Shown piece by piece: positions 19,433-53,913 of a stretch of 64,000 bases of DNA. The notes beneath the pieces are model-generated. The model was not told the DNA's origin, did no database searches, and was given only the letters and a program-made list of their open reading frames with translations. The position numbers and the translations under genes are program-made. The stretch covers positions 36,146,001 through 36,210,000 of the forward strand of contig OX485806.1 in the NCBI GenBank assembly GCA_950295325.1. Reading direction: 5' to 3'. This DNA comes from Polytrichum commune. Its lineage: Eukaryota > Streptophyta > Polytrichopsida > Polytrichales > Polytrichaceae. Every line of letters starts with the position of its first letter. Position 1 is the stretch's first letter.

Positions 19433-20056
19433 TTGCAGTGGGTTTTATCACAGTATGATGATGCTCCATTGAAAGACTTAGGGAAGGTGGTGCTCAACAT
19501 TAGACATGCTATCGTGTGCAGTTATGAAGTATGGAGTGAGTTGGATGCACAAATAGTCAATAATTGTTGGAGGATGGTGCGTATACTACTTGCAACACGG
19601 AATGATCATTTTGCCCTAGTTGATGAAAGAGAGAAGAATATAATGCAAGAAGAATCAGATGAACTTGGTGCTTTGATTTCAAAATTTCGATTGGGTGATG
19701 AAGACATGTCAATCGAGACTTACATTTAGATGGAAATGGAAGAGATTACTGAGCTAGAGTTGAGTACTAATGAGTTGGTGGATGATGCTTTGGGAATCAA
19801 TTATGCACAAGGCTTTGATCTTGATGTTGATCTACATTTAGTAGATGTGGATGATGCTCCACCTATAGTATATTTTAGTGATGCTAAACGTCATGCATCA
19901 TTGTTGTCTAATTTCTTATTAGACAACTCTTTACATTTTGGTGTTAATAAAGTTATTAGTTTTCAAAAGCTAGTAGGAAATTTAGATAAGATGACAATTG
20001 CTAACTTGGGTAGGTAACACGGTCATAGATCTTTGAACTCTTATTTCAAGAGTTCT
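19433..20056 (+). pseudogene. pogo-like transposase C-terminal remnant
   Basis: Two consecutive open frames (19433-19729, 19730-20017) in one reading frame, separated by a stop and followed by another. The first contains IRHAIVCSYEVWSELDAQIVNNCWR, matching the conserved pogo/Tigger segment with an aromatic residue, a polar turn and NCWR after the DDE domain. The last part reads HRSLNSYFKSS, a tail like those that end such proteins. A homologous stretch at 39895-40075 has a sense codon where this copy has the stop before HGHRS. The DDE catalytic region and DNA-binding domain upstream are missing. Confidence 0.65.
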
Positions 20057-20290
20057 TGAGAATATTAGTACTTGTTGGAGCTATAATTTATTATTATATA
20101 CAATATATATTGCTCAAACTCGTTGTATATATTTTAAAGCTCATATTGCTTATGTTTTTGTATTCCCTCGATAGTACGACAATTTTACGAGATTTGTCAT
20201 ATTAACGAGAAGATGACACCTCGATAATACGACATTTTTGTGTTTCCCAAACGTGTCATACTAAAGAGGGAGAACATTAGGCTCCTACAA
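20057..20290 (+). mobile_element. 3' end of the pogo-like element
   Basis: Contains CCTCGATAGTACGACAA, CCTCGATAATACGACAT and TGTCATACTAAAGAGGGAG, the subterminal motifs shared with 40150-40290. The terminus itself was not fixed. Confidence 0.5.
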
Positions 20291-20460: not shown

Positions 20461-21170
20461 CTATCGTATGTCTTGCTTGTGTTCTAGAGCGGCTATGTAT
20501 TCATTGCTACTCATAAATATAGACTTAGAATAATCTATACAAGGTGTGTCACAGCTCCTTTGAGGACTGGACACCATTTGTGGAAGGGCCAAAAACAATG
20601 TCAACCTTAACGTTGCATTTGAATCAACCCCATCCAACACTTGTGAAATCCTAAATTCCTCATTGGTATCTGCCCTCCATTCCCCTACCCCCCATTTCCA
20701 CACCTTGCATTGTGTCCCCCTCATCATCTCTCAATGCCACCATTTATTGAGTTCCGCCTTCTTGAGATTATTTTATCTTTTCGTCAAGCACCTCCTCAAA
20801 ACACTTTGTTTGGCCAAAATCATCATCCATGGTGGTCTAATGTAAAGGCCAAATACATGTAGCAGGAAACTTTCCTAATGTTTGCTAGAGTCATGGACAA
20901 CGACACCCAATTGGCTAGGTCTCCCATCATTGCACCCTTACCCTTATTTCTAAGGGTCCAAAAATCTCGGTATTTCCTAAATGCCATCTTAAACAACTTG
21001 AAAATAATCACATCTAGGGGTTGGATGGCATGGATGTGTGGTTGGGAATTGGTTGAATTAGGGCCCTGTGTGAAATGGTAAGTCCCAACTCTAATGCTCT
21101 CAATGGCTACGATTGTATGAATTGACCTCAAGTGAAATGCAAGGAAATATTTTTTTCTAAAAAATTCCAA
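20461..21170 (-). pseudogene. Second pogo-like transposase remnant
   Basis: The 115-codon frame at 21170-20823 contains HIHAIQPLDVIIFKLFKMAF and then KYRDFWTLRNKGKGAMMGDLANWVSLSMTLANIRK. This matches the QPLD(V/L)-x-F-K segment and following helix of pogo/Tigger DDE domains. A downstream frame (20727-20461) ends with DYSKSIFMSSNEYIAALE, a plausible C-terminal tail. This family differs from the one at 19433. The N-terminus, first catalytic residues and element ends are not seen, and the two frames are not continuous. Confidence 0.65.
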
Positions 21171-21189
21171 GAAGTAAAAAAAAAAACAT

Positions 21190-22154: not shown

Positions 22155-23707
22155 CAGTGTTCAAGATTGAAGTCTTCAATGCCCTTCAAACGCGATTTGG
22201 CCCTTCAAAATATACCTCTCTCAAAACAGCCCTTCAAAATGCAACCCCAAACTCAAAATGAAAACTTCACTTGACGTCCTCAAAATTTTTACACCCGTCA
22301 ACACTGTAGCGCTACAGTGACGAGGAGGTCGCTACAGTGACAACCTCAACACCTAGCAAATGATTCATTCAACATCGATCTGACTTGGAATTCAACTTTT
22401 TAGGTCTTGCAAAAGATTGGAATCCAACCCTTTCTTTGGTAAGCATTGAGTCAGTGTTGTAGTGTGATGTGATTCAATCAATGTGAAATCAGTGCTGATT
22501 TGGGTGAGATGGTTATCCCGTGGCTTGGTCATGGAGAGATTGGTATTTTGTATGCCTGCAATTTTAGAAATTTGGGAGGTTGAAGAACCCACATGGTACA
22601 AGGATCTAACTTCTCTTCAGTTCCAATTTTTCATTCACATGCTAGCTGATATATTATCAGAGTTGAATAAGGTCAATCGCAAGTTTCAGTTTGATCTTGT
22701 AGATATCACTAGCATAGCTTCTATGATTGATGTAACAATCAGCTTGTTTCGTAGACACTATCTGGGTGTAAGTTTTGGCCTGACAACCAAACACCTAGGA
22801 AAGTTTCTCCGCGAGGTGGTACCCAATGGGCAGATATTGTATGTTGATAGTTTTGGGTGCGAAAAAATGCATATCTTGCATTATGATTCCATGCCCGAGT
22901 GTGACGTAGGAGGCTCATTGGAGGCATGCATCATGTTGGGGAGGCAGTATGTGCAGAAGATCATCGATTCACTCAATGATCGATTTCCTGACTTGTCCAT
23001 TTTCAATGCGGCCCGGCTTTTTAGCCCGAAGCACTATCCCGTAGATGAATTGGACAGAGGGACATTAACGGAACAGTGGTTGAACCGGTTGGTGACACAT
23101 TTCCGTTGGAGCGATGACCTTGTTAATCAATGCAATGCGGAATTGCTAGAATTCGTGGAGATGTTATGTTCCGTTTGTGAACGCCGAAGTATGCAAGAAG
23201 CTTGGGTTTTTTGTGGCAATGACCGGGAGCTCATGATTAATTGGCCAACTATGATGTCGCTATGGCAAGCCATACTTGTGATCCCAACTAGCACTGCTGT
23301 TTGTGAGCGTGGTTTTTCAAAGCAAAATTGGGTTAAGAGTGAAAGGAGAACTAGACTCAACCTTGACACACTAGATGCTTTAATGAGGGTTAGTCTAAAT
23401 GGGTTAGGAGTTGAATTCATGGATTGGGATAGTATTTTTGAATCTTGGAAAATTGGCACAAGAACCAACAAGCGTAGGGCATTATCACTAGAAGAGGTGG
23501 AGTTAGATGGTTGATTCTTAATTCTTCACATTGTATTGGAAGCATGCACCATATAAATCATGCATAAGTTTAATATGAGTTTTTTATATTTTATTTCTAT
23601 ATTACTGAATTGACGTCTTGAATTTGAACTAGCCCTTCAACCGAAGGGCTCAAATTTTAGAGCCCTTCAAAATGAAACTCATATGAGGGCTTCAATCTTG
23701 AACACTG
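22155..23707 (+). mobile_element. hAT transposon H1 with perfect 8-bp TSD
   Basis: The element runs from CAGTGTTCAAGATTGAAG to the inverted CTTCAATCTTGAACACTG and is flanked by CTTGGGAC on both sides (22147-22154, 23708-23715). The subterminal regions carry repeated AGCCCTTCAA motifs, likely transposase binding sites. At 1553 bp it is shorter than autonomous plant hAT elements, and its transposase frame lacks the N-terminal half, so it is probably an internally deleted derivative that would need a helper. The perfect duplication suggests fairly recent insertion. Confidence 0.92.
22483..23514 (+). CDS. hAT transposase, N-terminally deleted
   Basis: A 343-codon frame opening on GTG; the first in-frame ATG is at 22531. 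Residues 253-305 (NWPTMMSLWQAILVIPTSTA, VCERGFS, then RRTRLNLDTLDALMRVSL) are the hAT C-terminal dimerisation region. In intact family members this follows an RNase-H-like catalytic domain interrupted by a helical insertion. The segment from about residue 45 (QFQFFIHMLADILSELNKVN) corresponds to the helical insertion and later catalytic part. The BED-type zinc finger and the first catalytic acidic residues are absent; full-length proteins are usually above 600 residues. The frame is uninterrupted, so the deletion is recent or the truncated product was retained. It would act, if at all, in the nucleus. Confidence 0.8.
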   Translation: MKSVLIWVRWLSRGLVMERLVFCMPAILEIWEVEEPTWYKDLTSLQFQFFIHMLADILSELNKVNRKFQFDLVDITSIASMIDVTISLFRRHYLGVSFGLTTKHLGKFLREVVPNGQILYVDSFGCEKMHILHYDSMPECDVGGSLEACIMLGRQYVQKIIDSLNDRFPDLSIFNAARLFSPKHYPVDELDRGTLTEQWLNRLVTHFRWSDDLVNQCNAELLEFVEMLCSVCERRSMQEAWVFCGNDRELMINWPTMMSLWQAILVIPTSTAVCERGFSKQNWVKSERRTRLNLDTLDALMRVSLNGLGVEFMDWDSIFESWKIGTRTNKRRALSLEEVELDG

Positions 23708-35417: not shown

Positions 35418-36448
35418 CTAAAATCGCTCTCAGGGTTTGGGAGATTTTTGAGCTCAACCAGCTAAAATTTGCCCCTTCACAACTTCTACCGGTTTTTCCA
35501 CGATTTAACCAGTTGCAAACTTGTTGCCATTGATTTGGTGCGGCCAATATCCCATATTTTTTTTTCAAGTGCCGGCTAATTTCCTCTCCATTATAATGAC
35601 AACTCGCCAAAAACTTGGGCATTGATAAGTAAGCCAATTTCCAATGTAGAAAAATTATATCTACAAACAATATACACCATTCAACAACAACGTCCAAAGA
35701 ACATATCAACATACAACAATAATATGTAATGATATCAACATCCAACAACAATTATCAACAATTCATTACATACAAGAAACAACAACAATGATCAACAATT
35801 TATCCATAGCAAGAGTTGAATCTGAAATAACCCATCAACATGTTGATGGCCATGGATTTATTCTTCTATCATACCTAGGTCTTAAAACCTCATATTAGAT
35901 TTGAGGCCATAACATGAGAAAAGAGTAACCTAACATACCATACTATATACAAAAATGAAATTCATCAACTGTTAGAGTCAAAATCAACAGTATCATCTTC
36001 ACCTTCAAGAGGAAAACACCCTAAAAGGTATCTATGTGGATGTGAAAACAACCATCTAAACTTTGTAGAGTTCCTTCGTAAAGCTATGGCTTCCATTAGT
36101 ACGTTATCAAGATCACCACAAAGATCTTTCATGGACACACGCACAATACATTTTAAACGCTAGCCTTCAACAATGAAGCAAAAGCTTCGCCTGTCTGCCA
36201 TTCACCAAATCGCTACAAGCCTACAATGAACACATAACCTAAACCCTAGAACTAGATGATATCCGGCCCTAGATGAATCAAACCGGATGAACTCCACCTA
36301 TTTCACAATTTGTCTAAGTAAAAATCCTCCTCCTCAAAATGGTTGCTGGTTGAAATCCGTTATTTTTTTTAAAAGCATTGGTTTCACATCCTCCACTTTC
36401 CCAATTCAACTGGACTTTTCACAAAACCAACCGGCCGTCATTACACTA
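35418..36448. other. Unassigned sequence
   Basis: Contains many ACAAC repeats around 35690-35800. No coding sequence or element ends supported. Confidence 0.4.
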
Positions 36449-36530
36449 ATAGGCCCCCCACACATACTGGTGGTGGGCGGCAGTGAACGGGCGAACACCA
36501 TTCACTGCCACCAGTATGTGTGGGCGTGTT
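36449..36530. repeat. Short foldback, copy 1
   Basis: ACACATACTGGTGG at 36460-36473 pairs with CCACCAGTATGTGT at about 36506-36521, with a further inner CAGTGAAC/TTCACTG pairing. An inverted copy lies at 41229-41297. The pair flanks the M1 cluster on both sides. Confidence 0.75.
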
Positions 36531-36900
36531 CGCCTGTACCAAAGGGAGGCTGGACATGTAATTGGCTTGAGTCTGAGAAATAACCAAGGTGAAGTTTAAT
36601 CCGTCGAGCGGTTAGGTACAGATGAACAAGTTGAGTTTGAGAATTAACCAGGTTGAGGTTCGAGAACTAGTGGTTAGGCATAGATGAACGAGTTGAGTTT
36701 GAGATTTAACAAATTTCAAGTTCGAGAATTGGCAGTTAGGTATAATGAACGAGTTTAGTTTGAGATTTAACCAAGTTGAAGTTCGAGATTTCAAGATAAT
36801 TACCAATCATTTTCGGTGAATCTATGGAATATGTCTAATATAAATAAAAGAAATACCAAAAGATGGCAACATGTCAAACTAAACTTACTAAACAAAGCTT
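36531..36900 (+). mobile_element. MITE M1 with left end amplified four-fold
   Basis: The terminal segment of M1 (GGTTAGGTACAGATGAAC to GAGTTTGAGAATTAACC) occurs four times in tandem with about 62-bp spacing (GAGTTTGAG anchors at about 36569, 36633, 36695, 36756). Normal M1 interior (AATTACCAATCATTTTCGG and on) follows. Copies differ by substitutions, so the amplification is not new. Confidence 0.75.
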
Positions 36901-37256
36901 ACTATGTGGAATTACACAATGCTATATCTATTTACTGTACATCTCATGTTTTACCAACAAATGTTAAATTGATAGTTTGGACATTATAAAACATTGACAA
37001 CTTTACTTGGTAGAATTTTATTTCATTAGTAAAAGGATATAGCACCTTGTAAATCCAAATAGTAAGTCACACTAAATATCATATTTGACTAATTGTCCAT
37101 GGAGATTTTTTTGGCATGATCGGTTAAATTTCTATTCTTTCCAAGTCCGATTGGTTACATGTTGCATGAACTTTCGGTTTTTTCTTTATTAATTCGAGGT
37201 ATGTACTCTATATTCCTCTAGAACGCTTGATAAGTTTGGTGATGTCTTGTTCAACC

Positions 37257-37622
37257 GGCTTATTTCTCGAATTCACCGGTTCATATTTGTGACTTAAGGT
37301 ACAAAATTATTGTGAAGTCTCGAACTTCAAGCAGGTTATTTCTCAAACTCACCAGTTCATCTTTGTAACTTAAGGTACAAAATTATCGTGAAGTCTCGAA
37401 GTGCAATTGGGTTATTTCTCGAACTCACCATTTCATCTTTGTAACTTAAAGTACAAAATTATCGTGAAGTCTCGAACTTCAAGTGGGTTATTTCTCAAAC
37501 TCACCGGTTCATCTTTGTAACTTAAGGTACCAAATTATCGTCGAGTCTCGAACTTCAACCGGGTTATTTCTCAAAATCAACTAGTGCATCTCTTTGTAAC
37601 TTTAGGTACCAAATTCTCCTAA
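37257..37622. repeat. 76-bp tandem array of the M1 terminal segment
   Basis: Five units in tandem, each about CTTCAA..GGTTATTTCTC, then AACTCACC..TTCATCTTTGTA, then ACTTAAGGTACAAAATTATC; a sixth lies after the insertion at 41145. The spacing is 76-77 bp. Confidence 0.9.
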
Positions 37623-37772
37623 GAGCGTCCCCACCAGACCGGGTATGGGGCATGCCAACGCCAAAAATGGGGCATCCCGGGTTCTTAGGTGGCGGTACCT
37701 ACATAAATTAAGCCCTACCAATGTCTGGTCCCCCATAATTTAGAACCGGCCCGGGTATGGTAAAGGGGAGAC

Positions 37773-38957
37773 GTTAAAGTTCCCCCCACAAACTTATAGG
37801 GGAGGTAGATTCGGGCAGGGGCAGCCGCCTGGCCAAAAATTCCAGATTTTCTGGACCCGACCGTAAATTGCTGCCCACCTGCCTGATTTCGGAAAAACCA
37901 TTGCCCTTGCATTCTTGAAGGCCACTTATCCACAAATCCCATATTGAGTGCACTTCACCTTCAAGGTCCAAAATCCAATATGTATGTTCACTTCCATTGA
38001 GTAAATAAGCAATTGACTCAGATTTCATTTTCAAAACGAAACCGTCAATAAAGCATGTAAATAACTAGGAAGTCAAAAATATTATAAAACCCTCATTAGC
38101 ACCGAGGTTATGATTTTTGTGACTTGCCATTGCAAGGGTCTTTGTCATTCTAAAATGGAAATAAATTTAGTGGTTTAAAATTAGTATGTTAAATATTATA
38201 GTCTTTTAGTTAATACTTTCTACTTTCACAAAGTTTTCATACGCATTTAAACTAATTAAGTGCGATTGAATGTAATTAAGTCTAGTTAATTCAGATTAAT
38301 CCTAATTAATGATAAAATATACTTACTAGAATTAATCATAATTAATTCTAATAAGTCTATTTTATTATTAATAAGGCTTAATTCATTTGGTAAGCATACA
38401 TTCTGATTTAATTGGGCTTAATTAGTATTAACCAGGATTAATTAGACTTAAATACATTGAATTACACAACTAGTTTAAATTCATATTAATTCTTTGTGAA
38501 AGTAGAAGGTATTAACTCGATTATAATACCTAACATACTAAAAATAAAACAGAAAAATTATGTTCCATATTAAGAATGACAAAGACCCTTTCAATGGCAA
38601 GTCACAAAAATCATAACCTCAGTGCTAATGAGGGTTTTATAATATTTTTGACTTCCAAGTGATTTCCATACTTTAATGGCCGTTTCACTTTGGAAATGAA
38701 ATCCGAGTCAATTGCTTATTTACTCAATGGAAGTGAAGATATATATTGGATTTTGGACCTTGAAGGTGAAGTGCACTCAATATGGGATTTGTGGATAAGT
38801 GGCCTTCAAGAATGCAAGGGCAATGCTTTTTTCGAAATCGGGCGGGCGGGCAACAGCTTACGGTTGGGTCCAAAAAATCTGGAATTTATGGCCCGGCAGC
38901 TGCCCCTACCTGAATCTACCTCCTCTATAAGTTTGTGGGGGGCACTTTAACGTCCCC
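37773..38957. repeat. Long imperfect inverted repeat, ~590-bp arms
   Basis: The arms run about 37773-38340 and 38345-38957 with almost no spacer. The minus frame at 38034-37774 (KMKSESIAYLLNGSE...) and the plus frame at 38690-38950 (MEMKSESIAYLLNGSE...) are translations of the two arms; they agree at most positions. The central part is AATTAA-rich. No known protein family was recognised. It could be a foldback element or a duplicated-inverted host segment whose transcript would form a long hairpin. Confidence 0.8.
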
Positions 38958-39528
38958 CTATAATAAAGACCTTCCCCCGCCATAAATGGTTCATATAACG
39001 GCCCGCCAAGAGATTACTTTAATATCAGATACTCCGATATCCTACTTTATCCCATGTCAGATAATAGGTGTCGTTGTCTTAGGGCCGCTTTACACTACGG
39101 TGGAGAAGTGCACCGGTCAGTCAAGAATTTTCGCCCAAGACATGGTTGTCTGAGGCGGGGGATGGTATGCCGGAGAAGATGAAAAGACAATAAAATAATG
39201 CTTGAAGAAGTCTTGACCGGCCGTAGTGTAACCACCTAGAGGAGAAGTGTATTGGACAAACTTCACCAAGAGGAGAAGTCCACCGTACTACTTCACAAAA
39301 CGGTCAAAGCCGGCCATAGTAGAAACCTTACCCCCTAAATGACCATTGTATTGATATTTAAACAATTTAATTGATAAAAAAATAAAATGTATATGGCAAT
39401 GTTTTAGAACTTCTTTCATGACAATAATTTATTTGAAAATGTTCCACCTCTATAATACATCCAAATTAAGGTAAATAAGTAGGTAACATTATCTTCTTAT
39501 TGATTCCTAAAGAAATAACATGTTGGTA

Positions 39529-40290
39529 TAGTCCAACCTTGTTAATACGACACTCGTTTATACGACACCCTCAATATTACGACACATTTTTACGAGACGA
39601 AAATTTTTAGTTCAAAACTCCCTCTTTTATTTGACTACAACACTCGATAGTGCAATATATAGAATCTCCGTTTTGTCATATTATAGAGGTAGTTAATGCT
39701 AGAATTCCTTTCATCTGCAATGTACATCTAAAATACATCCATCTTCACTTGGGAACCACTTGGGAACTTCACTTATTATTGGGAACTTAATGATAATTAG
39801 GGTTACTAGTGTAGGATGGACATGGTTAGGGTGAGGGTGGCCTCATGCCTAGTATGTTGCCTTGTACACGGGTGATATAGTATCACCAGTATCTTGATGC
39901 TAAACGTCATGCATCATTGTAGTCTAGTTTCTTATTAGAGAACTCTTTATATTTTGGTATTAATGAAATGATTAGTTTCCAAAAGTTAGATGGGAATTTA
40001 GATAAGATGAGAGTTGCTAACTTGGGTAGGCAACACCAAAGATCTTTGGACTCTTATTTGAAGAGTTCTTGAGAATATTTGTAATTGTTTGGAGTTATAA
40101 GTTATTATTTCATACCATCTATATTGCTTAAACTCGTTGTATATATTTTTAAGCTCATATTACTTATGTTTTCATATTCCCTCAATAATATGACAACTTT
40201 ACGTCATTTTTCATATTAATGAGAAGACGATAACTCAATAATACGACTTTTTTTGGATTACCCAAAAATGTCATACTAAAGAGGGAGAAA
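39529..40290 (+). mobile_element. pogo-like derivative
   Basis: The left end TAGTCCAACCTTGTTAATAC resembles the mariner-type ends at 15028. 39895-40290 aligns with 19870-20290, including the transposase C-terminal codons LGRQHQRSLDSYLKSS and TGTCATACTAAAGAGGGAG. The interior is deleted. The right terminus is uncertain. Confidence 0.6.
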
Positions 40291-40310
40291 AATAATGCAA
40301 AGATTTCTCT

Positions 40311-40693
40311 CGGGCTATCACCCCCCCCTTACCTTCATAACCACGTGCGATAAAAGTTTGCTACCCTATATTATATGCCATATATAATTTAATTTGTTTT
40401 TCTACACATGCATAATCATTGATAATATCTTTTGTATATTTTTTGAAATTTTTAGGCATCTTAATTTTTGTAGTAAAATTTTCAAGTCAATTTTGCGCCA
40501 ATATTTTATTTTTATTTTTAAAAATCATCAAATTTGGTTATTATTTGTTTACTATGTAATAGATACTGTGTATATTTACTCATGAAAAAAAATTGATAAA
40601 ATTTTGACCCATTTTGGTGACGCTATATGTAAAAAATAGATTTGTTTTATCGCACGTGGTGTTCAACTTGATAATGAAGTGCATCCCCCCAAG
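40311..40693. mobile_element. Mutator-like MITE M3, copy 1
   Basis: Flanked by GATTTCTCT (40302-40310 and 40695-40703), a 9-bp duplication typical of Mutator-like elements. Partly inverted ends contain ACCACGTGCGATAAAA and TTTTATCGCACGTGGTG with a run of C at each terminus. Homologous to 53511-53904. Confidence 0.75.
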
Positions 40694-41228
40694 AGATTTC
40701 TCTAAGGAAGAAATATATTATTGAAGTTGGAGTTCTCCGGAGGCCAAGTTTCTTGTCTGAGGCTTTGAGGTTGCCCAAGAAACTTGACCTCCGCAGAACT
40801 CCCCTTGGAAAAAGTGTGGCCACGTTGCCAACCATGTCATTATTTCATCCATGTACAAAGTTCTCCACCAAAGGACTCTTGGCCGTAGTGTAAACCACCA
40901 CCGGACAAGAGTGTCACTCTCGGCCAATCAAATTTCATAATTCCCCTAGAATTCTTGACCGGAGGACTTCTCCACCGTAGTGTAAAGCGGCCCTTATTGA
41001 TTGCTTCCTAATTATACCAGGGGTATGCCTAGGCTTTGGTGGGCTTTGACTCAAGATGAATTGCTGCTCAAGATGAAGGGCTCCCCAAAGGTATAAAATA
41101 TTATATACTCTATTTGGCGTGTACCCGATCTGGTGGAGATGCTCTAAAGTCTCAAACTCCAAGCGGATTATTTCTCAAAATCAACCAATTCATGTGAAAC
41201 TAACCGCCGATTCTCCTTGGTTCTCGTG

Positions 41229-41297
41229 CACACATACTGGTGGCAATGAACGGAGTATGCCCGTTCACTGCTGCCCACCACCAGTATGTGTGGGCGG
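41229..41297. repeat. Short foldback, copy 2 (inverted relative to 36449)
   Basis: ACACATACTGGTGG at 41231-41244 and CCACCAGTATGTGT at 41278-41291. Its outer part AGTATGTGTGGGCGG (41283-41297) is the target duplicated by the adjacent SINE. Confidence 0.75.
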
Positions 41298-41705
41298 GTC
41301 AGGCACCACGGGCCTTGGCTTGGTGGTTAGGGCTCATGACCCCCAATGAGGAGGTTGTGGGTTCCATTCCCCATGCTGGCGTGGTGCTCACCACCTTAGT
41401 CCACCCAACTATGGTGGGGGGTCCTTGGACCTTGTTGTATGGGTACCTCAAAGCCCTTTGGGGGGATACCATGTCCGGTATCTTCAAGGCACTAGTGGCT
41501 AGCTAGGAACTAGTATGGTGTGTCACTATAGTGCCCATCCTCGAAAGGGGAGAGTAGTATTGCCTCAATGTCCCCTTGTCCGGTGGGCATCGGGTCATTG
41601 ACATTACGAACGGACACTTTATTCACGCCGGCCCCTTCAAAGGGACCGGAGTTTCTATCTATCTGGGCGGGTCTCCAAATAATTTTTTTTTTAAAAAAAG
41701 AAAAA
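41298..41705 (+). mobile_element. tRNA-derived SINE with 15-bp TSD
   Basis: Flanked by perfect AGTATGTGTGGGCGG repeats (41283-41297, 41706-41720). Near the 5' end are an A-box-like TGGCTTGGTGG (41316-41326) and a B-box-like GGTTCCATTCC (41360-41370, one change from GGTTCGANTCC), spaced as in a tRNA-type RNA polymerase III promoter. It ends GGGTCTCCAAATAATTTTTT and a short A-rich run. At 408 bp it is within plant SINE range. The perfect duplication suggests recent insertion. Confidence 0.87.
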
Positions 41706-41720
41706 AGTATGTGTGGGCGG

Positions 41721-42077
41721 CCTATATAAGACAGCCTATATAAGACAATGGAAAATCTAGGATTTAAAATACTTTCTGCAGGCTCCCCCCGCCGCGGCAG
41801 CCTGCAGCCGCCACCCTGATTGATTCTGTCTGCGGTACCGCACCCCTGCCTTTCAGGAGCAGCCGTTCGGCTTCTGCCAAGTGTCATTGTCCACCTTGTA
41901 AGAACATCATTGGCTGGTTTCCGAGTCATTCAGGCGACCAGTCAGGTTCCTAATATTGGATCTGCATAGAATAGGGGGAGCAGCCGTTGTTTATTGTAGA
42001 TTTTCAGAAAATACAAGGGGGGTTTCAGAAACTACCAGAGGTTCACAATTTGGGGGGCTTGAAACCCCCCTGCGAAC
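41721..42077. other. Unassigned, with shared repeat
   Basis: 41763-41820 is the inverse of the repeat at 33106-33174. The remainder is unassigned. Confidence 0.45.
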
Positions 42078-42303
42078 CAGTGATCGGGGAGATTTTTGGG
42101 CATAAATCGGTTGAGATCCTAGTGTTTGCAAGTCCAGCCGGCTACATGTTGACATCCTCGGTTTTCCTTTATAAAAGTGGGGTATGTTCTATAAATTCCT
42201 CTAAAATGATTGGTAATTTTCATGTAGTCTTGAACTTCAACCGGTTATTTCTCCAACTCAACTAGTTTATCTGTAACTAACTGCCGGTTCTCCTTGATCA
42301 TAG
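42078..42303 (-). mobile_element. hAT-type MITE M1, complete
   Basis: Starts CAGTGATCGGGGAGATTTTT and ends TCTCCTTGATCATAG (inverse of the TIR with changes). Flanks CTGCGAAC (42070-42077) and CTTCGAAC (42304-42311) differ at one base: an 8-bp duplication. At 226 bp this is the reference M1 copy in reverse orientation. Confidence 0.87.
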
Positions 42304-42325
42304 CTTCGAACCTGTCACAAGCATT

Positions 42326-43028: not shown

Positions 43029-43454
43029 TCACCGGTTGACAGAAGGCCATAGGTATTCAGGGGACCCCAATTTGGCCGCACTCGATCTGCTTACATCTGG
43101 CATGGAAGCTAGAAAGTCCTGTGCCAAATGAGGAGGCACTGGGTGATGAATGTGTACGCCTACAACTCCTCTTGCCTGTATATTGAATCGATGAACTACC
43201 GGAGCTGCTGCACGGGCGGCGATCACGTTGCCATTGTCTGCAACTCCGCGAACGTCTGCAGCTCGAACTGCTGGAGCTGCTGCACGAGCGGCGTTGATGT
43301 TGCCATTGTCTGCAACTCCGCGAACGCCTGCAGCTCGAACTGCTGGAGCTGCTGCACGAGCGGCGTTGATGTTGCCATTGTCTGCACCTCTGCAATCTAC
43401 GATATTTTCATCCTCACCTCCTCTTGCCACTTCTGCATCCATATTTTGATCCAT
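43029..43454 (-). CDS. Unrecognised Ala-rich repeat protein, paralogue of 15928 ORF
   Basis: A 141-codon frame starting at a good ATG (43452-43454). The N-terminus is acidic (MDQNMDAEVARGGEDENIV). Residues 24-47 and 48-71 are two almost identical 24-residue units (ADNGNINAARAAAPAVRAAG and VRGV), with a diverged third to about residue 97. The C-terminal third (QARGVVGVHIHHPVPPHLAQ, DFLASMPDVSRSS, WPSV) matches the ORF at 15928, which has a single unit. The 24-residue unit has no known domain. Downstream homology includes GATCGGCCTAGTCAAGTACTTGAA and a TTCTTTGCAG site, so the natural protein may continue by splicing. A minus-strand TATATAA lies about 550 bp upstream. It could be a real small gene or a decayed copy. 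Confidence 0.5.
   Translation of the reverse strand: MDQNMDAEVARGGEDENIVDCRGADNGNINAARAAAPAVRAAGVRGVADNGNINAARAAAPAVRAADVRGVADNGNVIAARAAAPVVHRFNIQARGVVGVHIHHPVPPHLAQDFLASMPDVSRSSAAKLGSPEYLWPSVNR
43164..43385 (-). repeat. 72-bp in-frame tandem repeats in the ORF
   Basis: Two near-identical 72-bp units (43242-43385) and one diverged unit (43164-43241); they keep the reading frame. Confidence 0.85.
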
Positions 43455-44131: not shown

Positions 44132-46710
44132 CGATGTTAATGCAGATCGCCAATTCGACGAACCACTCTGCGATTCTTTCAAGACACTAAGATTTCTGCG
44201 CAGGTAGTGGGTTAACCTAACATGCGTGTCCATGGAGTAGTTTGTGAGCACTAGATTGGCTGCACTTTTTTGACGCGCTGTGATGTATGCCAGACCTCTC
44301 TGTGCGGTGGTCCGTGGTGCGCACGACGGCCCCAGCACAGATTTCTCGCACCAACACTCAACTGTCGAGGTTGCGAGTTCACAAACACAAAACCTCGCTC
44401 CTATCAACTGTGCGAGGGGGGACGCTAACCCTCCCGACAAGGAAATTCAGGTTTCCTCACACCCATTTACCTGGGGACCATTACATGGGGAAAGGAGGTG
44501 GATGTGTTGATGAACTTGTAACTGAGAGCGATGTTAATGCAGATCGCCAATTCGACGAACCACTCTGCGATTCTTTCAAGACACTAAGGTTTCTGCGCAG
44601 GTAGTGGGTTAACCTAACATGCGTGTCCATGGAGTAGTTTGTGAGCACTAGATTGGCTGCACTTTTTTGACGCGCTGTGATGTATGCCAGACCTCTCTGT
44701 GCGTTGGTCCGTGGTGCGCACGACGGCCCCAGCACAGATTTCTCGCACCAACACTCAACTGTCGAGGTTGCGAGTCCACAAACACAAAACCTCGCTCCTA
44801 TCAACTGTGCGAGGGGGGACGCTAACCCTCCCGACAAGGAAATTCAGGTTTCCTCACACCCATTTACCTGGGGACCATTACATGGGGAAAGGAGGTGGAT
44901 GTGTTGATGAACTTGTAACTGAGAGCGATGTTAATGCAGATCGCCAATTCGACGAACCACTCTGCGATTCTTTCAAGACACTAAGGTTTCTGCGCAGGTA
45001 GTGGGTTAACCTAACATGCGTGTCCATGGAGTAGTTTGTGAGCACTAGATTGGCTGCACTTTTTTGACGCGCTGTGATGTATGCCAGACCTCTCTGTGCG
45101 TTGGTCCGTGGTGCGCACGACGGCCCCAGCACAGATTTCTCGCACCAACACTCAACTGTCGAGGTTGCGAGTCCACAAACACAAAACCTCGCTCCTATCA
45201 ACTGTGCGAGGGGGGACGCTAACCCTCCCGACAAGGAAATTCAGGTTTCCTCACACCCATTTACCTGGGGACAATTACATGGGGAAAGGAGGTGGATGTG
45301 TTGATGAACTTGTAACTGAGAGCGATGTTAATGCAGATCGCCAATTCGAGGAACCACTCTGCGATTCTTCCAAGACACTAAGGTTTCTGCGCAGGTAGTG
45401 GGTTAACCTAACATGGGTGTCCATGGAGTAGTTTGTGAGCACTAGATTGGCTGCACTTTTTTGACGCGCTGTGATGTATGCCAGACCTCTCTGTGCGGTG
45501 GTCCGTGGTGCGCACGACGGCCCCAGCACAGATTTCTCGCACCACCACTCAACTGTCGAGGTTGCGAGTCCACAAACACAAAACCTCGCTCCTATCAACT
45601 GTGCGAGGGGGGACGCTAACCCTCCCAACAAGGAAATTCAGGTTTCCTCACACCCATTTACCTGGGGACAATTACATGGGGAAAGGAGGTGGATGTGTTG
45701 ATGAACTTGTAACTGAGAGCGATGTTAATGCAGATCGCCAATTCGACGAACCACTCTGCGATTCTTCCAAGACACTAAGGTTTGTGCGCAGGTAGTGGGT
45801 TAACCTAACATGCGTGTCCATGGAGTAGTTTGCGAGCACTAGATTGGCTGCACTTTTTTGACGCGCTGTGATGTATGCCAGACCTCTCTGTGCGGTGGTC
45901 CGTGGTGCGCACTACGGCCCCAGCACAGATTTCTCGCACCACCACTCAACTGTCGAGGTTGCGAGTCCACAAACACAAAACCTCGCTCCTATCAACTGTG
46001 CGAGGGGGGACGCTAACCCTCCCAACAAGGAAATTCAGGTTTCCTCACCCATTTACCTGGGGACAATTACATGGGGAAAGGAGGTGGATGTGTTGATGAA
46101 CTTGTAACTGAGAGCGATGTTAATGCAGATCGCCAATTCGACGAACCACTCTGCGATTCTTTCAAGACACTAAGATTTCTGCGCAGGTACTGGGTTAACC
46201 TTACATGCGTGTCCATGGAGTAGTTTGTGAGCACTAGATTGGCTGCACTTTTTTGACGCGCTGTGATGTATGCCAGACCTCTCTGTGCGTTGGTCCGTGG
46301 TGCGCACGACGGCCCCAGCACAGATTTCTCGCACCAACACTCAACTGTCGAGGTTGCGAGTCCACAAACACAAAACCTCGCTCCTATCAACTGTGCGAGG
46401 GGGGACGCTAACCCTCCCGACAAGGAAATTCAGGTTTCCTCACACCCATTTACCTGGGGACAATTACATGGGGAAAGGAGGTGGATGTGTTGATGAACTT
46501 GTAACTGAGAGCGATGTTAATGCAGATCGCCAATTCGACGAACCACTCTGCGATTCTTTCAAGACACTAAGATTTCTGCGCAGGTAGTGGGTTAACCTAA
46601 CATGCGTGTCCATGGAGTAGTTTGCGAGCACTAGATTGGCTGCACTTTTTTGACGCGCTGTGATGTATGCCAGTCCTCTCTGTGCGGTGGTCCGTGGTGC
46701 GCACCGGTGG
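44132..46710. repeat. 397-bp tandem array, about 6.5 copies
   Basis: Unit anchors (GATGTTAATGCAGATCGCC) lie at 44132, 44529, 44926, 45323, 45720, 46115 and 46512; the period is 397 bp except one 395-bp unit that lacks AC at about 46046. Copies differ by only a few substitutions, so the array is young. Each unit carries open frames on both strands (105 codons plus, 118 codons minus), but substitutions do not favour any frame and no motif is present, so I do not call them genes. A fragment of the unit (TTCTCGCACCACCACTCAA) also occurs once at about 43809, between the array and the minus-strand gene. Confidence 0.93.
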
Positions 46711-53510: not shown

Positions 53511-53904
53511 CTCAGGGCAATCACACCCCCTTACGTTTCATAACCACGTGTGATAAAAGTTTGCTACCCTATTATATGCCATAGATAATTTTAAAATTTA
53601 TGATATTTTTTCTACATATACATAACCATTGTTAATATATTTAGTATATTGTTTTGAGATTTTTTAATCATCTTCATTTTTGTAGTAATTGTTTTAGTTC
53701 AATTTTGCGTCATTCTAGTTAGAAACGGTATGTTTTATAAAAAACACAAAGCATCAAATTTGGTAGTATGCAATAGATATCATGTATATCTACTCATGAA
53801 TAAATTTGATAGAATTTTGACCCGTTTTGGTGATGCTTTATGTAAAAAGTAGATTTTTTTTATCGCACGTGGTGTTCAACTTGACAATGGAGTGCACCCC
53901 CCAT
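53511..53904. mobile_element. Mutator-like MITE M3, copy 2
   Basis: Homologous to 40311-40693: AACCACGTGTGATAAAAGTT near the left, TTTTATCGCACGTGGTGTTC near the right, C-rich termini. Flanking ATTTGCAC occurs at 53503-53510 and 53906-53913, an 8-9-bp duplication. Confidence 0.72.
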
Positions 53905-53913
53905 GATTTGCAC

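Follow-up and report, generated by a model that had tools for sequence, protein, structure and literature searches.

Elements at the locus

We analyzed a 64,000-nucleotide stretch of the Polytrichum commune genome, C4:36146001-36210000 (contig OX485806.1; hereafter the window), in an assembly of 407.8 Mb and 64 contigs (GCA_950295325.1). Coordinates without a contig name are those of the window. A first-pass annotation of its sequence had described four successive levels of insertion: two inverted copies of a repeat named M1, flanked by inverted foldbacks (level 1); a Harbinger-like element in the M1 array (level 2); a second Harbinger-like element inside it (level 3); and, inside that, a pogo derivative and a Mutator-like miniature inverted-repeat transposable element (MITE), with a short interspersed nuclear element (SINE) in the outer foldback. 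We retain the terms level 2 and level 3. Comparison with other copies in the genome showed that the locus is a genuine nest of mobile elements inserted into one another (Table 1), that its outer part consists of the 3′ portions of two opposed elements, A and B, best explained as fused by a deletion, and that the contents of level 3 are older than the arrival of level 3. Nesting of this kind is well known, and as such the structure is an ordinary phenomenon.

The empty-site controls were paralogous copies of the elements elsewhere in the same genome, and because the DNA searches score only the best candidates (40 as a rule), the copy numbers given below are lower bounds. Searches of the window against Rfam, at the gathering thresholds, and for tRNAs gave no match.

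Table 1 Features of the nested locus, in window coordinates
Feature	Position	Strand	Remarks
Repeat K, host of element B	35704..36449	.	Left border not fixed; last ~23 bases absent from the window
Element B, 3′ half	36450..36879	-	Harbinger-type; foldback end at 36450-36525, followed by a 62-bp array and M1-like sequence; 5′ half missing
Filler at B/A junction	36880..36892	.	13 bp
Element A, 3′ part	36893..41724	+	Core 36893-37240, 76-bp array, foldback 3′ end; 5′ part missing
76-bp tandem array of A	37250..37622	+	Target of level 2; resumes at 41148
Level 2, Tourist-like MITE	37623..41144	+	404 bp without inserts; TAA at 37620-37622 and 41145-41147
Palindromic 1.2-kb MITE	37765..38958	.	9-bp duplication, TATGGTAAA 37756-37764 and TATAATAAA 38959-38967
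Level 3, 1.9-kb Harbinger-like element	39082..40993	+	TTA at 39079-39081 and 40994-40996
Pogo-like piece in level 3	39533..40284	.	Borders approximate
Mutator-like MITE in level 3	40310..40693	.	AGATTTCTC at 40301-40309 and 40694-40702
SINE in 3′ foldback of A	41298..41705	+	15-bp duplication AGTATGTGTGGGCGG at 41283-41297 and 41706-41720

Two opposed elements meet at a unique junction

The outer foldbacks are indeed inverted copies of each other (36454-36522 and 41229-41297, 69 bp, 90% identity), as the first-pass annotation had stated, although they are not separate from the M1 repeats that they were thought to flank; they are the 3′ ends of M1-bearing elements. In the A family, core and foldback are parts of one element 0.93 to 1.54 kb long, whose 5′ end starts with TAGCCTCCCCACACC and whose 3′ end is the foldback, finishing with GTGTGGGCGGCCTA. 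Both ends were recognizable in 24 of 29 retrieved loci, and identical 3-bp flanks were present in 20 of the 24, compared with a mean of 6.9 after shuffling (0 of 10,000 shuffles gave a count as high). The equal triplets were TAA (12 loci), TTA (2), TGA (2), TAT, ATA, AGA, and CAT (1 each), a target laxer than TWA.

Neither element is complete. Similarity to A began at about 36893 in all 39 other primary matches listed (position 100-104 of the query), and upstream of the core the 29 retrieved copies carry a common sequence that is absent from the window. The left half of the structure instead resembles family B, a sister of A, and runs the opposite way; parts of 36445-36879 have matches at 90 to 93% in four B loci (L010, L011, L012, and L014), and in L011 and L014 the similarity ends at 36879. 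The 13-bp filler between the two halves had no match in the B relatives or the A copies, and a 40-mer spanning the junction (36870-36909) occurred a single time in the genome at up to three mismatches. Outside B, the left flank (36148-36449) is part of repeat K, which had at least 38 other matches; all six retrieved K copies align up to 36448/36449 and then share about 23 further bases before diverging. When these K-tail bases were sought in the window, only weak matches were obtained, and the tail was not found at the right edge of the structure, where the triplet following A is TAT and not the TAA (36447-36449) that lies outside B.

Since the junction is unique, the A copies differ to the left of 36893, B ends at 36879, and K runs on beyond its border with B, the best account is that the outer halves are two independently inserted, opposed elements, each without its 5′ half, which a deletion probably fused. 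The inverted foldback ends on both sides might also suggest one chimeric transposon with two 3′ foldback ends that moved as a unit, the more so as TAA and TAT differ by just one base. The B-A junction, however, occurs only once in the genome, and a single insertion into K would require the end of K at the right edge, where it was not found; we therefore consider this origin unlikely. Much less probable still is an error of assembly at the B-A junction: repeats do lie on both sides of it and it is unique, but C4 is a 59-Mb contig, and where repeats cause a misjoin, the two sides should have sequence in common at the join, not 13 bp of filler between them.

The segment 42073-42303 was considered as the lost part of B and rejected. 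It is 87% like part of L011, but the spacer and 5′ end of L011 have no match beside it, and M1-like copies also occur elsewhere in the window.

As a separate observation, opposed pairs of A elements were seen at two further places, L041 (C6:35077188-35078990) and C2:30698502-30700763, with the cores facing and the foldbacks between.

Level 2 and the two insertions into it

Once its inserts are taken out, level 2 consists of 37623-37764, 38968-39081, and 40997-41144. This joined 404-bp query had at least 44 matches, 37 of which span positions 1 to 404 at 90 to 93%. The proposed insertion of level 2 into the M1 array with a TAA duplication was borne out: TAA lies on both sides in the window, and the host occurs empty elsewhere. 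Different ends, or a lack of TAA flanks, in other copies of the segment would have spoken against it; all seven retrieved copies end at the same points, each between two equal triplets (TAA in 4, TTA in 2, TCA in 1). Excision of 37623-41147 had further been predicted to restore the M1 sequence and its 76-bp phase. After this excision the alignment ran through the join in all 29 host copies, although in the window itself the unit spacing across the join is 79 and not 76, owing to three extra bases in the last unit to the left of the insertion. Among the 29 alignments, 23 come within 10 bases of the join left by removal of the SINE, and 19 cross it.

The first-pass list of elements was incomplete, as a palindromic MITE within level 2 had been overlooked. 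The segment 37761-38962 is a single large palindrome with arms of 389 bp that are 91% complementary, and a query from its left side had at least 40 matches outside the window, several of them as inverted pairs. At the corresponding site, all seven level-2 copies are unbroken, with TATAGTAAA in five and TATATTAAA in two. The flanks in the window, TATGGTAAA and TATAATAAA, each differ from TATAGTAAA by one base, which fits a 9-bp duplication around the palindrome; together with the long inverted ends, this suggests a Mutator-like MITE.

Level 3 was confirmed inside level 2, with TTA on both sides, 39-bp ends that are 95% complementary, and a site that none of the seven level-2 copies has filled. 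Paralogous copies with empty sites thus bear out the succession from host to level 2 to level 3.

The contents of level 3 predate its arrival

To the right of the pogo-like piece, 40310-40693 has inverted ends and lies between exact copies of AGATTTCTC, as the first-pass annotation had noted, and these marks point to a Mutator-like MITE. The timing given for the two pieces, as a fourth level added last, did not hold. Among nine retrieved relatives of level 3, five (L072, L080, L081, L082, and L084) cover 39078-40994 essentially in full; L083 aligns up to 40775, the similarity of L085 is lost after 39841, and L070 and L071 are copies with internal deletions. The 5′ part of the pogo-like piece was found in all nine, and eight had all or part of the Mutator-like MITE. 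Both 9-bp duplications around the MITE are exact in L072, L080, and L084; the right one is one base off in L071 and L082, one side is lost in L081 and L083, and L070 lacks the left side and has a changed right side. Because the pogo-like piece and the Mutator-like MITE are common to level-3 copies on other chromosomes at the same places, they predate the arrival of level 3 at this locus.

A query with the Mutator-like MITE removed crossed the site in 40 of 40 primary matches listed (87 to 92%), which means that MITE-free copies of that part of level 3 are common. With both pieces removed, the query stopped at the pogo border in all 40 primary matches listed, the window included, and showed the right-hand half for one copy only, so that it argues only weakly for the presence of the pogo-like piece in every copy. 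In the simplest history, a single founder acquired the MITE and multiplied, and one of its descendants inserted here. Four successive levels at the locus, with the two pieces inserted last into a resident level 3, would agree with the perfect 9-bp duplication and with the existence of MITE-free copies, but this history is practically untenable, as the same pieces stand in the same places on other chromosomes, with the duplication exact in three copies, and it could be rescued only through many independent insertions at the same base. Equal 3-bp flanks were found for level 3 in the window (TTA/TTA), in L070 (TTA/TTA), and in L080 (TCA/TCA).

A second copy of the Mutator-like MITE lies elsewhere in the window (53515-53906); it is 79% alike, and its flanking 9-mers are equal at 8 of 9 positions. 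The pogo-like piece, a label taken over from the first-pass annotation, is in part 86% like 19879-20274. The open reading frame (ORF) at 20823-21188, near that segment, may encode a product resembling a pogo-type transposase, but it gave no Pfam hit.

A SINE inserted separately into element A

The insertion of the SINE into the outer foldback stands, flanked as it is by an exact 15-bp repeat. The element had at least 39 other primary matches at 97 to 99%, a closer similarity than in the best matches listed for A, level 2, or level 3; these 39 begin at position 1-5 of the query and stop at 363-370, short of the A/T-rich tail. A target duplication of variable length, an A-rich 3′ tail, and many copies with a common 5′ end are what would be expected of a SINE, as judged from sequence. 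It entered the same host as level 2, in an event of its own.

Order of events and proposed history

The first-pass annotation held that relative ages can be assigned from this one locus. The direct repeats it relied on are present at level 2, level 3, the Mutator-like MITE, and the SINE, but only a partial order follows. K was there before B; both level 2 and the SINE came after A; level 2 preceded both the palindrome and level 3; and the contents of level 3 preceded its arrival. The locus gives no order for A and B, for the palindrome and level 3, or for the SINE relative to level 2 and its contents, nor does it place the deletion relative to the events that came after A and B. Dating by divergence was tried and set aside: the differences from the family majority were 10 of 347 positions for the A core, 13 of 400 for level 2, and 52 of 1899 for level 3 (2.7 to 3.3%), and the three do not separate.

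We propose the following history, to which we assign a probability of roughly 80%. Two non-autonomous Harbinger-type elements would have inserted in opposite directions, presumably by cut-and-paste transposition, B into K with a TAA target and A into other DNA, now marked by TAT. A deletion would have taken out the two 5′ halves together with the end of K and the intervening DNA, and end joining may have left the 13 bp of filler. The 404-bp Tourist-like MITE (level 2) would have entered the 76-bp array of A with a 3-bp duplication. Into level 2, a 1.2-kb palindromic MITE would have inserted with a 9-bp duplication and, at another site, the 1.9-kb level 3, already bearing the pogo-like piece and the Mutator-like MITE of its founder. 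Independently, the SINE would have been retroposed into the 3′ foldback of A. The elements and their ends, the empty sites, the common contents of level 3, and the single occurrence of the fusion are observed; movement by cut-and-paste and retroposition, and the deletion with its manner of repair, are inferred from them.

Several observations count against this history. At least one end could not be recognized in 5 of the 29 A copies, and the triplets are unequal in 4 of the 24 A loci with both ends (L042, L045, L047, and L048). The query for the tail of K matches weakly (30 bp, 80%) at 42276-42305, within an M1-like copy. Because level 2 sits in a tandem array of its host, an alignment crossing the site shows that the phase was kept and does not amount to a unique empty site. 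The borders of the palindrome are often truncated or unclear in six other loci. Finally, among the six other level-3 copies with the right end in view, a count that leaves out L082, L083, and L085, the triplets are unequal in L072, L081, and L084 and unclear in L071, which also makes the assignment of level 3 to Harbinger less clear-cut.

The locus is a compact example of misleading nesting. Even when its target duplication is perfect, an inner element can be older than the insertion of its carrier at the locus, carrier and passenger having been amplified together, and comparison of copies within one genome settles which is the case. The locus also provides the ends and duplications of several repeat families, which could not be matched to named families here, in a limited literature search that was not directed at this genome; its value lies in the corrected order and in usable family definitions.

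Other features of the window

A tandem array of a 397-bp unit occupies 44132-46704 (6.5 copies, 98% matches), and a 72-bp repeat at 43193-43390 (2.8 copies) lies within an open frame of 158 amino acids. The 348-amino-acid open frame at 22468-23514 encodes a putative product that may correspond to the C-terminal part of an hAT-type transposase.

Classification and comparison with known systems

CACTA elements also make a 3-bp duplication, and they have ends beginning with CACTA or CACTG. A and B, considered as CACTA elements for their 3-bp duplication, were rejected because their ends begin with TAG(G)CC. The Myb-like domain PF12776 was found above the cut-off in two B-like elements (L087 and L088); two pieces of L014 gave no Myb-like match at an E value of 0.1. 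In L088 (C5:22995900-23001900), an element with a similar end carries a PF13359 (DDE_Tnp_4) gene and adjoins the B-like element with the Myb ORF. The other end of the DDE_Tnp_4 element was not found, and its end sequence has one other match, with three mismatches, and is not repetitive. L088 is thus a candidate lead to an autonomous Harbinger, the link of its DDE_Tnp_4 gene to A and B being unproven; a search of the genome for an autonomous partner of A and B gave no firm result.

A Myb-like ORF1 is described for PIF/Harbinger in excerpts of PMC2836001, and the Myb-like protein encoded by the longer relatives of A and B resembles it. The excerpted account also gives 3-bp duplications as common to PIF/Harbinger elements and Tourist MITEs such as mPing. 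By these two marks, A and B would belong with PIF/Harbinger, and level 2, whose 3-bp duplications are mostly the TAA or TTA typical of that group, is likewise a putative member. A and B differ from PIF/Harbinger and mPing as outlined there in their foldback 3′ end, their internal array, and their less strict 3-bp target, with no proven autonomous copy. Conceivably, though we hold this only tentatively and think it somewhat doubtful, A and B represent an undescribed Harbinger lineage with asymmetric ends, in which the 3′ terminus is a self-complementary hairpin of about 75 bp, the 3-bp target is relaxed, and an internal M1-like minisatellite varies in length from copy to copy; opposed pairs of such elements would be prone to deletion fusions such as the one at this locus.

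Reconstruction of order from insertions of one element into another is shared with TinT, which, according to the excerpted text of PMC3014933, uses genome-wide frequencies of retroposons, whereas the present case is a single locus of mainly DNA transposons in which an inner element may be an older passenger. For rice, the excerpts of the MITE Tracker report (PMC6171319) count MITEs inside larger elements (20 of 17,651 by that program), nested as found here, but rebuild no order. Comparable to A and B by its description in PMC4079207 is Tetris of Drosophila virilis, a foldback DNA transposon linked to tandem repeats and satellite DNA.

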